This document shows positions 2,283 through 19,877 of a DNA stretch of 40,218 nucleotides, piece by piece. Position 1 is the stretch's first letter; each line of letters opens with the position of its first letter. Position numbers and translations under genes: made by a program. This stretch comes from Ruminiclostridium sp. (GTDB lineage Bacteria > Bacillota > Clostridia > Oscillospirales > Ruminococcaceae): assembly GCA_017941355.1 (NCBI GenBank), contig JAGAWN010000158.1:1-40218 (forward strand). Direction: 5' to 3'. Under the pieces are notes generated by a model that had not been told where the DNA came from, did no database searches, and was given only the letters and a program-made list of their open reading frames with translations.

Positions 2283-2373
2283 TTTCTTTCTCCTTCCTTT
2301 TTCCGTTTGTTTTCTGTGCCGCAGTTAGCGGCGTATTACAGGTTCGGTCGTAAGCATGAATCTATGGGGGTAA

Positions 2374-2449
2374 GGCAGTTTTGAGAAGCAAAACTGCCGC
2401 GGTTTTTTTGGGGCAAGCCAAAAAATCCGGAAAGTATCCGTATACTTTC
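2374..2449. other. Triple inverted-repeat cluster upstream of the relaxase, candidate oriT
   Basis: Three hairpins lie within 76 bases. A perfect 10-bp stem GGCAGTTTTG (2374-2383 with 2389-2398). Then TTTTTTGG with CCAAAAAA (2404-2411 with 2418-2425), extendable past one mismatch to 2401/2428. Then GAAAGTAT with ATACTTTC (2430-2437 with 2442-2449). Origins of transfer usually sit just upstream of the relaxase gene and are built from such repeats. The first hairpin with GCGG and T7 could also serve as a rightward terminator. Confidence 0.4.
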
Positions 2450-2553
2450 TCTCATTGATGTAACGCAGAGAAGTTTTTCGGAAACATAGTAAAAGACCGA
2501 TTACAGTGGGATTTATAAGTAATTCAACATCTTTTACTACGGAGGAAAAACCT

Positions 2554-2826
2554 ATGTACAGCACCATTAGCAAGTTATATTATGGAGAAATAAGCCCTTG
2601 TAAGGAACCATCACCGAACACGAAGCGCTACAAGGAGACTTCCGGACGCATTTCCGAGATACAGAAAACGCTCACTGACAAGTATCCCGATATTACCGAT
2701 CAGCTTGACGAGCTCCTCGATGCCGAACATATTATAACAGCATTGGAGAGTGAAGCGGACTTTGCCCGCGGATTCAGATTAGGCGTATTGCTTATGTATG
2801 ATACCTTATATAATGTAGAAGAATAA
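2554..2826 (+). CDS. DUF6809 family small protein
   Basis: The chosen ATG at 2554 follows ACGGAGGAAAAACCT, which contains a strong ribosome site; an in-frame ATG at 2506 has none. The 90-residue product begins MYSTISKLYYGEISP, and has a central acidic helical region and an ending with FARGFRLGVLLMYDTLY. This matches the layout of DUF6809 proteins: an N-terminal LY-GEI-P motif and a C-terminal F-GFRLG-LM motif. These are common in clostridial integrative elements and their function is unknown. It is the only gene in the left element on the plus strand and is divergent from the relaxase. An intrinsic terminator follows within 10 bases. Confidence 0.8.
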   Translation: MYSTISKLYYGEISPCKEPSPNTKRYKETSGRISEIQKTLTDKYPDITDQLDELLDAEHIITALESEADFARGFRLGVLLMYDTLYNVEE

Positions 2827-2834
2827 GCTCGAAG

Positions 2835-2866
2835 GCACCCGACCCATTTCAGGTCGGGTGCTTTTT
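2835..2866 (+). terminator. Intrinsic terminator of the DUF6809 gene
   Basis: A perfect 10-bp stem, GCACCCGACC (2835-2844) with GGTCGGGTGC (2852-2861), and a 7-base loop, followed directly by a T-run. Confidence 0.9.
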
Positions 2867-3089
2867 CTCAATAAATCTATCATGTATCATATTTCAGATA
2901 CGACAAAAGAGCCGCGTTATTACAGGCAGCTTGCAAAATGTATATAGTAGATGCACGAAAAATATCACTTGTATTGCATTTCCGGATAAGAATAATTACC
3001 TGCTTTCCTGAGCATGGCAAACAAAGCGTCTGCAATAAGAACAGAAGCACTTTTCTCGGACATCTATTTTCGATTATTATAATCTCATT

Positions 3090-3363
3090 TCAAAGCATTT
3101 CAGTTTAATATCATTCATGATGTCTGAAACTACTCGGCTAATGCAGTCTCAAAATAAGAATGATTAATAAAGGCAAAGCGAAATCGTTCTGTTGGTATAA
3201 ATGTGGTGTTTCTCCGGCTATAGAAACACATTATCCCACGAATCGGATAATGCTGCATTTATGCCAACAAACATATTGCTTAAACATTTATGCTATGAAA
3301 CATATAACGTTACAGTATATTCGGTACTTGGCGCAGATCATCAAAATGGTCTGCGCCTTTTCC
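3090..3363 (+). ncRNA. Candidate structured RNA with a three-way junction
   Basis: No convincing gene lies between 2867 and 3411. The plus strand instead shows nested structure. A hairpin at 3098-3129 has TTTCAG pairing with CTGAAA around ATCAT/ATGAT. A three-way junction at 3191-3268 has P1 of 13 bp (3191-3203 with 3256-3268), P2 of 8 bp (3206-3213 with 3222-3229) and P3 of 7 bp (3230-3236 with 3245-3251). P2 and P3 are flush. An intrinsic terminator at 3330-3363 closes the region. The only imperfect pair in the junction is a G-U that is valid on the plus-strand RNA but would be A-C on the other strand. A TATAAT at 3078-3083 could be the -10, but no good -35 is visible. I do not recognise the class. 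Confidence 0.45.
3330..3363 (+). terminator. Intrinsic terminator closing the candidate RNA
   Basis: GGCGCAGA (3330-3337) pairs with TCTGCGCC (3350-3357); further inner pairs form and the loop is small. TTTTCCTTT follows on the plus strand. No plus-strand gene precedes it, which is why a non-coding transcript is proposed. On the minus strand no T-run follows, so it is not the antirepressor's terminator. Confidence 0.75.
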
Positions 3364-3411
3364 TTTGGTTCAATTGGTTCTTGTTTATCAGATTACTGAG
3401 GACAAGGAATT

Positions 3412-4077
3412 TTATTCATCATCATCCGGAACATCATTAGAAGCAAGGGGGCTTTTTGACTTCGGGAGTATCCCGTGAGATTTGAGCAATCTGTATAAAA
3501 ACTCGCGTCCCTTTTCCGTCCAGTACATTACCACCACGGTTCTGTCACCTGATTTGTCCGGGATCACATAAGTCTTTGTCTTGGTATATCCCAGGTTCTG
3601 ATATTTGGCATATAATGCCCATACACCGTTCTGTGACCTGTACTGAACCTTGAACGCATTCAGGAGTATGTTCATTTTTACGGCAGACATACCGTAGTCC
3701 TTCGCTATAAGTGTCATAGCAGTCAGGGACTCGCTGCTCTGCAGCACTTTGTCGTAGTATTCGCCCTTGTATTCAAGCGCGGCATTTCTTGTTTCAAGCA
3801 ATGCAGTTTTATGATTCGCATCATTGAGAGCACGGAGAAGCATATTGGCTTTGTCCGCGTCCTCAATGATCTCTTTCATTTTTGATTCGGATATATACGC
3901 GCCATACCTGTGAACTGACGGCAGTATCTCTGAAGTGACCCAATGCTTGAATTTTCTTGCATTCAGCATTTTGCTTCCCAGGATAAGGCTGTATAAGCCG
4001 CTCTCGTTTATAAGTGCAGCACCCTTTAATTCGGAAAGCCAGCATGACTTCGTATCAGTTCTCAACCACGACAACAT
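3412..4077 (-). pseudogene. Phage antirepressor, N-terminally truncated (BRO-N remnant plus KilAC)
   Basis: The frame encodes the end of a BRO-N domain (INESGLYSLILGSK, then ARKFKHWVTSEILPSVHRYG) and a complete KilA-C/ANT domain (about residues 85-205, including MTLIAKDYGMSAVKMN and YTKTKTYVIPD). Phage antirepressors of this family bind DNA or repressors to trigger lytic genes. A full BRO-N domain needs some 60-70 further residues before INESGLYS. Here the preceding 18 residues are unrelated and run into the antisense of a relaxase fragment, so the 5' part has been lost. The ATG at 4077 is simply the first in frame and has no good ribosome site. It is probably non-functional, although a truncated KilAC protein might still be made. 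Confidence 0.8.
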
Positions 4078-4537
4078 TCATTCAGTTGAGGAGCTCGAAC
4101 ACAGAATGTCTGATCTTAAGGAACGATATGAATCTGCACTTAGGGAAATAAATAGCTATACACCAAGCAATACTCGTTTAGACGGAATAATAGAACAGGC
4201 GGAACAATATTTTGAGCTGTCTGCAAAGCAAGTACTTTCCGAGGCTGAAAAAATACGGCTGAATATTTTCAGGCATACTGTGACCGCGAATAACATCCAC
4301 TCTGCTGATGATCTCCAGCAACTTAAAAATGAACGGGAAATTGCAAATAAAAAAATAACAGCTCTCAGAAAAGGATTCGAGAGCTGTAAAAAGCAATATG
4401 AGGTTTATAGTGGTATTGCCGCGACTTATAGAGATATAGCTTGCAGCGATTACATCAGTAAGTTGGTGCTTGCTGAAAAAGAGAAGCAAGAATTTCAGCC
4501 AAAAGGTATTGACATGAAAAAAGGACAGATGATATAG
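4049..4537 (+). pseudogene. Relaxase C-terminal fragment
   Basis: From about 4049 the plus-strand frame reads LNHDNIHSVEELEHRM and continues through a coiled coil to CSDYISKLVLAEKEKQEF. This parallels the intact relaxase's INRLNIHSIGELEAKM through KGDYISNLMKSEQELEAE, with the same spacing over about 150 residues. The relaxase catalytic half is absent: upstream of 4049 the frame is antisense to the antirepressor fragment and has no relaxase similarity. It is therefore the tail of a second, diverged relaxase, opposite in orientation to the intact one. The stop is at 4535-4537. It is unlikely to be expressed. Confidence 0.75.
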
Positions 4538-4604
4538 TGAGTCTAACTCCGGGATTTAGCCGGACTCTCAAGTCAACCCAACTGTGTCTGCAGTTCCATG
4601 ATCC

Positions 4605-4928
4605 TTATCCTGCGGCGGAAACAAGTGCATCCATAATTTTCAGAATACGCTCTTGTTCCTTTTCCGGAAGATTATTTACTCTTTCCATTATGCCATTATT
4701 GGAAGGCTTGTTTTGGTTTTCAACATAATCGCATAACAATGTATCGGTTGATACATTCAGCGCGTTCGACAACAGCACGAGCGGTTCCAGCGCAGGAAGG
4801 CGCTTGCCTGTCTCGTATGAATATATTGCCATTTCGCTGAGTCCCGTTTTTTCTGCAAGCATGACCTGTGTCATTTTGTTTGCAAGCCTGTACTCTTTAA
4901 TTCTTTTTCCAACCATTGAATACTCCAT
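4605..4928 (-). CDS. XRE-family helix-turn-helix regulator
   Basis: This 107-residue protein has an N-terminal Cro/C1-type HTH at about residues 8-62 (IKEYRLANKMTQVMLAEKTG, then a recognition helix around SEMAIYSYETGKRLP). It ends with a short C-terminal helix (LPEKEQERILKIMDALV). It would bind operator DNA as a dimer and probably represses element genes. ATG at 4926-4928 has TAAGGAGG seven bases upstream; that TAA is the stop of the preceding frame at 4940, so the two genes are tightly coupled. It lies between relaxase debris and the frameshifted gene and may be a remnant control gene of a prophage or integrative element, but it looks intact itself. Confidence 0.85.
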   Translation of the reverse strand: MEYSMVGKRIKEYRLANKMTQVMLAEKTGLSEMAIYSYETGKRLPALEPLVLLSNALNVSTDTLLCDYVENQNKPSNNGIMERVNNLPEKEQERILKIMDALVSAAG

Positions 4929-18737: not shown

Positions 18738-19817
18738 TCACGCCGCCCACTTGACCATGTCCATACAAGCGCGTTTACGGTCGAGGGAGCTGTGAACGTA
18801 GCGGTTCAGCGTGATCTCGACGGAGCTGTGACCGAGAATTTCGGACAGCGTTTTAACATCGAATCCGAGAGCGATGCAATTGGTTGCAAAAGCGTGGCGC
18901 AGGCTGTGAAAGTGTACTGACGGTAAATTTGCTTTTTTCAGCACGGATGCAAATCTGTACTGCATGGTGCGCGGCTCAACGGGACTTAACTTGCTGGAAA
19001 GAATATATTTGTCGGCACTATCCTTGAACTTTTCGAGCATGGAGACAAGACATTCGGGAATTGGAATAACACGCACGGAGCTTGCGCTTTTCGGCTCCGT
19101 TATGACAAGTTTTGTTGCATTTTTACCGTCGTAGCTTTTTATGCGCTGAACGGTCTTTCTTACGGTTATGGTGCGGTTTGCGAGGTCTATGTCCTTCCAT
19201 TGAAGCGCGCATAGTTCGCCGATACGGATACCGATATGTAGCGACAGCGCGATACCGAGCGCGTTCAGGTCAAAGTCTCCGTTCAGATATGCCATAAGCC
19301 GCGACTGTTCGGACTTTGACAGCACTGCGATCTCAGGCTTTGTGCGCTTCGGCATAACAATACCTTCAAGGCAGTTATTGACACCATAAACTCGGCTGGC
19401 ATAGCGATACACGGATTTCAACAGCACGATAATGTCGCTGACATAACGCGCCGAAAGCCCCGATTTCAGCTTACTTTCGATAAATTGGTAAACATCATTC
19501 GCTTTCAGCAAACAACATTTCATATTACCGAACGCCGGAATTATGTGCTTTTCAGCTTTCATTCTGTAATTAACCTCGCTTGATTCTTTCAAGCGAGGCT
19601 TTATTACAGTTATGTACTCCATTGTCAGCTCTTTGACGGTCATTTCCGTTAAATCCGCCGAAACGGTGTCAGGCTCGCGTGCCGCAAGCATCTTAAATTC
19701 CGCTTCTTCCGCGGAGCTGCCGTAAAACGAGCGATAGCGCCGTTTACCGTTTTCGTCCTTGCCGAGCAGCACACGCGCTTCGTAACGCCCGTCCTTTCGT
19801 CTGTAAATATTTTTCAT
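18738..19817 (-). CDS. Tyrosine integrase of the right-hand element
   Basis: This 359-residue phage/ICE-type integrase has an N-terminal AP2-like arm-binding domain (YEARVLLGKDENGKRRYRSF, residues 12-32) and a core-binding SAM-like domain (60-160). The catalytic domain has Arg near 197 (IGIRIGELCAL), Lys in TEPKSASS, HSLRHAF near 304, LGHSS near 325 and the nucleophile tyrosine in LNRYVH near 336. All are present, so it should be active. ATG 19817 has AAAGGAGAAGATTGA upstream and a TATAAT at 19847-19852. It lies at the end of the right-hand ICE module on the same strand, as expected for that element's integrase. It is only distantly related to the preceding zinc-ribbon integrase. Confidence 0.93.
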   Translation of the reverse strand: MKNIYRRKDGRYEARVLLGKDENGKRRYRSFYGSSAEEAEFKMLAAREPDTVSADLTEMTVKELTMEYITVIKPRLKESSEVNYRMKAEKHIIPAFGNMKCCLLKANDVYQFIESKLKSGLSARYVSDIIVLLKSVYRYASRVYGVNNCLEGIVMPKRTKPEIAVLSKSEQSRLMAYLNGDFDLNALGIALSLHIGIRIGELCALQWKDIDLANRTITVRKTVQRIKSYDGKNATKLVITEPKSASSVRVIPIPECLVSMLEKFKDSADKYILSSKLSPVEPRTMQYRFASVLKKANLPSVHFHSLRHAFATNCIALGFDVKTLSEILGHSSVEITLNRYVHSSLDRKRACMDMVKWAA

Positions 19818-19877
19818 TCAATCTTCTCCTTTGTTATTTCCGACAAATTATACTGCCGTTTTTCTACGAATCGGATA

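Follow-up and report, generated by a model that had tools for sequence, protein, structure and literature searches.

Salmonella Genomic Island 1, a mobilizable element, is described as encoding a small RNA, sgm-sRNA, in its mobilization region near terminator-like repeats; in that account the RNA lies between mpsA and oriT, originates as the 3' portion of a longer RNA and, as judged by deletion, is needed for transfer (PMC9299015). The oriT of pMV158 (relaxase MobM) is described as combining three inverted repeats with one direct repeat, with hairpins that extrude in supercoiled DNA (PMC5863519). A candidate RNA motif found by comparative analysis is presented as a three-stem junction with more hairpins after it, of which the last is a terminator, and adjoins genes that it possibly controls (PMC11109978). 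Here we compare with these systems a predicted three-way junction from Ruminiclostridium sp., located at 3190-3269 on the plus strand of the window, by which we mean the whole stretch of 40,218 nucleotides analysed, an entire contig (G000:C38).

If the fold is RNA, sgm-sRNA would be its nearest functional precedent, by likeness and not by membership. Both would be small RNAs (ours putative) of a mobilizable element with terminator-like repeats nearby, whereas our fold is at a distance from the oriT-like region, seems to stand alone and, in contrast to sgm-sRNA as so described, is known from sequence alone. If the site acts as DNA, its mode of action would resemble that of repeats clustered as in the pMV158 oriT, again as a likeness only. 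It likewise clusters three inverted repeats and one direct repeat, but its hairpins are compatible and flush, whereas those of the pMV158 oriT are described as mutually exclusive around the nick site, and it lacks a nick-like motif of the local oriT class. Like the candidate motif, it is a three-stem junction with a terminator-like hairpin after it; unlike that motif as presented, it has no downstream gene and yielded no homologue in our searches. Phage C4 antisense RNA controls antirepressors, and our fold resembles it in being a (putative) small structured RNA near an antirepressor gene. By contrast, C4 RNA is absent among the Rfam matches of the window, and the antirepressor gene here is convergent and truncated.

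In a single-sequence fold, the plus strand, if transcribed, would form a three-way junction with 0 unpaired junction bases. P1 pairs 3190-3206 with 3253-3269 (inverted repeat I1) and encloses two hairpins, P2 at 3207-3228 (8-nt loop 3214-3221, CCGGCTAT) and P3 at 3229-3252 (8-nt loop 3237-3244, CACGAATC). A preliminary description of this DNA had proposed three stems of 13, 8 and 7 bp, with P2 and P3 flush and a single G-U pair, valid only on the plus strand. The flush junction and the plus-strand G-U pairing stand, but the stems now measure 17 bp (P1), 7 bp (P2) and 8 bp (P3), and the core contains not one but three G-U pairs (3196-3263, 3204-3255 and 3205-3254), all of them G-U on the plus strand. 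P1 could extend outward by 11 more pairs (3176-3188 with 3270-3281, so that the whole spans 3176-3281), interrupted by one-base bulges at 3185 and 3189 and an A-A mismatch (3182/3275) and including a G-U pair (3180-3277). This extension occurs in the best folds of 3176-3283, 3170-3290, 3090-3363 and 3140-3363 and is absent from that of 3030-3363; its pair probability ranges from 0.40 to 0.83, varying with the length folded (four transcript lengths). The P1 pairs tested have probabilities of 0.91-1.00 over four transcript lengths, and pairs 3210-3225 in P2 and 3233-3248 in P3 reach 1.0 each. Across core and extension, 4/4 non-Watson-Crick G-U pairs fall on the plus side (one-sided binomial p about 0.06).

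The core (3190-3269, plus) folds at -33.9 kcal/mol, compared with -15.2 +/- 2.9 for dinucleotide shuffles, none of which was as stable (z -6.5; 0/2000). The minus strand of the same interval folds at -27.4 kcal/mol (z -4.5; 2/2000 shuffles as stable). For the longer stretch 3191-3363 the plus strand gives -59.1 kcal/mol against -33.4 +/- 3.8 (z -6.7; 0/200 dinucleotide shuffles as stable) and the minus strand a z of -6.1 (0/200). These values, with the scan described below, bear out the earlier claim of structure far above chance. A nested hairpin proposed upstream at 3098-3129 (plus) is weak (-6.4 kcal/mol, z -2.0) and drops out of the argument; taken together, the bases 3090-3175 show no more structure than their shuffles (z +0.4).

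To place the fold against its genomic background, flush junctions were scored as pairs minus unpaired junction bases over both strands of 726,395 bases, made up of the window plus 67 stretches of the same genome (68 sequences), with a slight overlap between two of the stretches. The window fold ranked first with a score of 32. The next scores were 28, 27 and 25, and one long hairpin dominates each of the junctions scoring 28 and 27. In Markov-random controls (two versions of all 68 sequences, 1.45 Mb) the top score was 23. When more branches were allowed (100-base windows, 422 kb), one five-way junction scored higher (34; L087 3061-3157), which by our reading seems to lie inside coding sequence, and the next score below the window fold was 25. 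In a further 320 kb, window included, the fold again had the top score, ahead of a four-way array of oriT-like appearance in L143 (30) and of a junction in L109 (27). Ranked by energy alone with a rough G+C correction, in windows of up to 50% G+C over 422 kb, all 26 entries listed (two of them one place under two names) stand above the fold, so its energy by itself is unremarkable in a genome with many long hairpins. The three-way junction is no chance product.

The surroundings are mobile-element debris, as the preliminary description had proposed and as Pfam searches and relaxase comparison bear out. To the left, a relaxase gene on the minus strand (699-2282), the oriT-like array of hairpins upstream of it (2371-2454) and a gene for a DUF6809 protein (2554-2826, plus; PF20648, E 2e-19) make up a mobilizable element, a sister of which occurs in L077 with an 86% identical relaxase. 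Downstream of the DUF6809 gene comes a G+C-rich inverted repeat (I5) with a T-run (2832-2864), which is not in the terminator-scan list; since that gene has a hairpin and T-run of its own, the stretch with the fold looks like a separate unit. DUF6809, which is not named in the literature searched, has 38 matches in this genome and occurs in 38/71 genomes of the genus and 0/14 control genomes, and it seems to be a marker of mobilizable elements that form a heavily amplified group. In L087, a pemK RNA match in Rfam (21-101, minus; 63.5 bits) also lies near a DUF6809 gene, which shares its contig.

To the right of the fold lies an N-terminally truncated phage antirepressor gene (3412-4077, minus) with a Bro-N remnant and KilAC (PF03374, PF02498), whose PF02498 match starts only at profile position 63. 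Next comes what is left of a second relaxase, its C-terminal part (4052-4537, plus), which shares 55% identity with the L098 relaxase, 48% with that of L077 and only 31% with the window's own relaxase. A repressor-like gene (4605-4928) is convergent with this remnant, in the same order as in L098. The truncated antirepressor and relaxase genes meet at their broken 5' ends at about 4020-4077, a junction that, judged from the sequence, is a scar of deletion or recombination between two mobile elements.

Homologue searches, which the preliminary description had proposed, returned the fold's own copy and short or chance matches. The covariance models of Rfam 15 gave 0 matches at gathering score in the whole window, in keeping with the earlier remark that the class was not recognisable; at E up to 5, 2800-3500 gave five sub-threshold matches, of which the best scored 21.9 bits where the gathering score is 111. 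BLAST against the own genome found the sequence itself and one 21-base chance match (E 0.85). Among 99 relatives, 71 gave matches at E up to 1, which apart from the own copy were 15-45 bases long; the best foreign match (E 1.2e-5, 27 bases) aligns 26/27 bases of a terminator arm with an L107 stretch read as a copper-transporting ATPase, and we take it as chance. There was no match in 72,556 plasmids; 50,697 phages gave 10 records with 32-57 bases, annotated as Staphylococcus phage DNA polymerase, and 398 genomes of the phylum gave the own copy and one 23-base match.

A covariance model (R1) built from the window sequence alone found one copy in the own genome, which was the sole match in 71 genus, 394 order, 396 family and 391 class genomes (these sets and the phylum set overlap). 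It gave one match in 62 sister-element and antirepressor loci (L088, E 0.48, a plain hairpin) and none in a further 12. Five pattern scans of viral contigs gave 0, 0, 1, 0 and 1 hits; neither hit matches the model, and both read as coding sequence by eye. One pattern scan of genome contigs gave three stretches, none accepted as a homologue: in L025 the match is confined to P1, L024, which reads as coding sequence by eye, agrees in P1 but has many broken pairs in the rest, and L023 does not match the model. These covariance searches pre-screen candidates, with stricter filters over 40 genomes, and the model is a single-sequence one, so a diverged homologue may have escaped and distant relatives may exist. 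In the searches made, the fold is a real single-copy orphan structure with no relative found.

On the plus strand, a consensus scan finds an intrinsic-terminator-like hairpin at 3330-3357 (12 pairs, 4-nt loop, tail TTTTCCTTTG), which begins 61 bases past the three-way junction; 3330-3363, which contains it, has a z of -6.3. The earlier claim of a plus-strand terminator with no gene to serve agrees with this result, as no plus-strand gene follows the fold; the gene nearest on that side (3412-4077) is a minus-strand one. The T-run of the hairpin is short (TTTTCC). Terminator-like sites number five in 2300-4600 against 1.7 +/- 1.2 in shuffles, and the scan also lists P3 as a minus-strand site (3253-3228). 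Upstream, the interval 2948-3190 holds no plus-strand promoter-like site that scores at least 9/12 with a spacer of 16-18 bp. The closest one with normal spacing is at 2919-2948 (9/12), and a site at 3057-3083 reaches 10/12 but is weak, with a 15-bp spacer. Pfam gives no match at E up to 1 for any of four open frames in 2880-3440, of which two run through the fold. The evidence for or against an RNA is strong on neither side. We tentatively read the locus as an orphan small RNA gene on the plus strand, ended by the terminator-like hairpin and left on or carried by mobile-element DNA, a reading that falls just short of an even chance. In its favor are a fold far above chance that is stronger on the plus strand than on the minus, G-U pairs on the plus side, a terminator-like hairpin with no gene to serve, the look of a separate unit and open frames that match no Pfam family; the weak promoters, the lack of a homologue that could show compensatory changes, the unused repeat described below, the good folding of the minus strand, the listing of P3 as a minus-strand terminator-like site and the short T-run count against a small RNA.

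Strong hairpins in nearly flush arrays (2-4 unpaired junction bases) precede mobC/relaxase genes in this genus, and some close into three- or four-way junctions. Examples on the minus strand are L077 2893-2961, L140 2774-2848, L143 1656-1745 and L061 1488-1577; the window array at 2371-2454 is of this kind, and L108 also carries a multi-hairpin oriT-like array. These arrays are probably oriTs with unusually elaborate single-strand structure. The motif GCAAGCANAGAAA stands before the hairpin array in 15/15 related upstream regions counted, a count that left out the L077 sister of the window relaxase and the distant relaxase loci L104 and L105. The window's own relaxase region matches the motif at only 10/13 positions, and the GCAAGCA part is missing from the window array (2371-2458) and from that of the 86% identical L077 sister.

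The most serious rival to an RNA acts at the DNA level. Repeats around small dyads typify protein-binding regions of origins, att sites or oriTs, and here a 21-mer occurs three times: R1 (3183-3203, plus) overlaps the 5' arm of P1 and is 16/21 identical to R2 (3256-3276, minus), which overlaps the 3' arm, and R3 (3285-3305, minus) is a direct copy of R2, 29 bp on, identical to it at 18/21 positions against a best of 16 in 2000 shuffles of 2870-3411. R3 plays no part in the three-way-junction fold, and this significant third copy of the P1 repeat hints at a role as DNA. The site could thus be a signal of a decayed mobile element, in which R1-R3 and the dyads P2 and P3 would bind a replication, recombination or mobilization protein or form a single-stranded DNA hairpin, the RNA fold then being a by-product of symmetry. 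Nearly flush hairpin clusters before the mobilization genes of the genus' relaxase-linked elements, a position amid relaxase and phage remnants, good folding of the minus strand and weak plus-strand promoters all fit this reading, whereas no replication initiator or recombinase adjoins the site (nine window proteins against Pfam), blastn of 2870-3411 against the collected loci gave short matches only and no locus with R1-R3, and the plus-only G-U pairs and the plus-strand terminator-like hairpin go unexplained. We consider a DNA signal possible but rather improbable, and an RNA slightly the more likely of the two. Duplication could leave such repeats with no present role, as a remnant of an insertion or repeat expansion by inverted duplication, and the near-copy R3 points to duplication at the site; debris all around and a single copy with no relatives found would also suit a remnant. 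Yet a simple inverted duplication should give one long palindrome and not three unrelated flush stems, and under neutral decay one would expect some of the 32 pairs to be disrupted by now, which makes a remnant quite unlikely. A repeat element of the MITE type should occur in several copies, and BLAST and the covariance model over 300 contigs of the own genome found one.

The genus arrays raise the narrower question of whether the fold is the oriT of a second mobilizable element, that of the relaxase remnant (4052-4537) on the same strand. Like the arrays of L077, L108, L140 and L143, in which strong stems are nearly flush and some are closed by an outer stem, it is a cluster of flush strong hairpins. 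The complete relative of that relaxase in L077 has a nearly flush three-way junction upstream (3 unpaired junction bases), and the 7-mer CGGCTAT is common to the P2 loop and the first hairpin of the relative L139. Unlike those arrays, however, the fold neither carries GCAAGCANAGAAA (best match in 2870-3411, 9/13, the shuffle level) nor precedes a mobC or relaxase start, with the antirepressor gene in between, and covariance model R1 finds nothing in sister loci. We judge an oriT extremely unlikely on the missing motif, which is strong though not absolute evidence, since the region of the window's own relaxase does not contain the full motif either. A leader or riboswitch that has lost its gene, with the terminator as expression platform, is very unlikely. 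Many leaders consist of a structured RNA and then a terminator, as here, and similar structured leaders precede secreted-protein genes in the sister elements L077, L081 and L037, but no plus-strand gene lies downstream, the junction lacks an unpaired core and no Rfam family matches at threshold. The ligand-binding RNA suggested in the preliminary description is unsupported for two of these reasons, the missing downstream gene and the lack of an unpaired core for a pocket. Plus-strand alignment with the three sister leaders scores 45, 45 and 39, below shuffle maxima of 68, 55 and 70, which stem from minus-strand alignments. In such an alignment, the L081 leader scores 71 against at most 68 in 200 shuffles, and the L037 and L077 scores were reached by 7 and 35 of 200; we do not accept a kinship. 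The L081 similarity concerns a stretch that lies to the left of the fold and on the opposite strand.

That stretch (2878-2934, minus) is 57 bases long and 70% identical to the L081 secreted-protein leader (E 0.001 in the collected loci), and is possibly leader debris. Separately, a minus-strand leader of L037, near a DUF6809 gene, contains a perfect tetranucleotide array of 17 copies (836-904), whereas the similar leaders L077 7960-7601 (minus) and L081 5201-5750 (plus) have about 2-3. The gene behind this leader looks to be of the secreted-protein type, and the array has the look of a switch by which a surface-protein gene on a mobilizable element would undergo phase variation.

If the locus is a small RNA gene, RNA polymerase would initiate at a point before the fold, read through it and terminate at the hairpin 3330-3357; transcription, its start and its strand are what we infer from the signals above. 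A start just past 3057-3083 would give an RNA of ~270 nt and one past 2919-2948 an RNA of ~400 nt. The 17-bp P1 stem would stabilise the RNA, and the two 8-nt loops, on perfect stems, would be offered to a partner, perhaps by pairing with a target RNA or by binding a protein; action through the loops is our guess. A bolder version, in which this is an undescribed small RNA of mobilizable elements, a flush Y with two 8-nt loops and its own terminator that would act in trans on transfer, integration or immunity of its element in the manner of sgm-sRNA, we think unlikely. The 12-mer ACGAATCGGATA occurs both in P3 (3238-3249) and at 19866-19877, just upstream of a minus-strand integrase gene (18738-19817). 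Such an RNA could pair with the integrase-gene leader, a weak lead given that 32% of random sequences match as well.

The fold, its non-randomness, the terminator-like hairpin and the single copy come directly from computation. As a single copy with no relative, the fold alone cannot carry the small-RNA claim, and it will be of moderate to low interest as long as neither a transcript nor a homologue is shown. It is useful meanwhile as a seed sequence for larger metagenome collections. To our knowledge, the non-coding parts of mobilizable elements have been little studied. If the small-RNA reading is true, a free-standing structured RNA would offer a testable handle on the control of this genome's many mobilizable elements.
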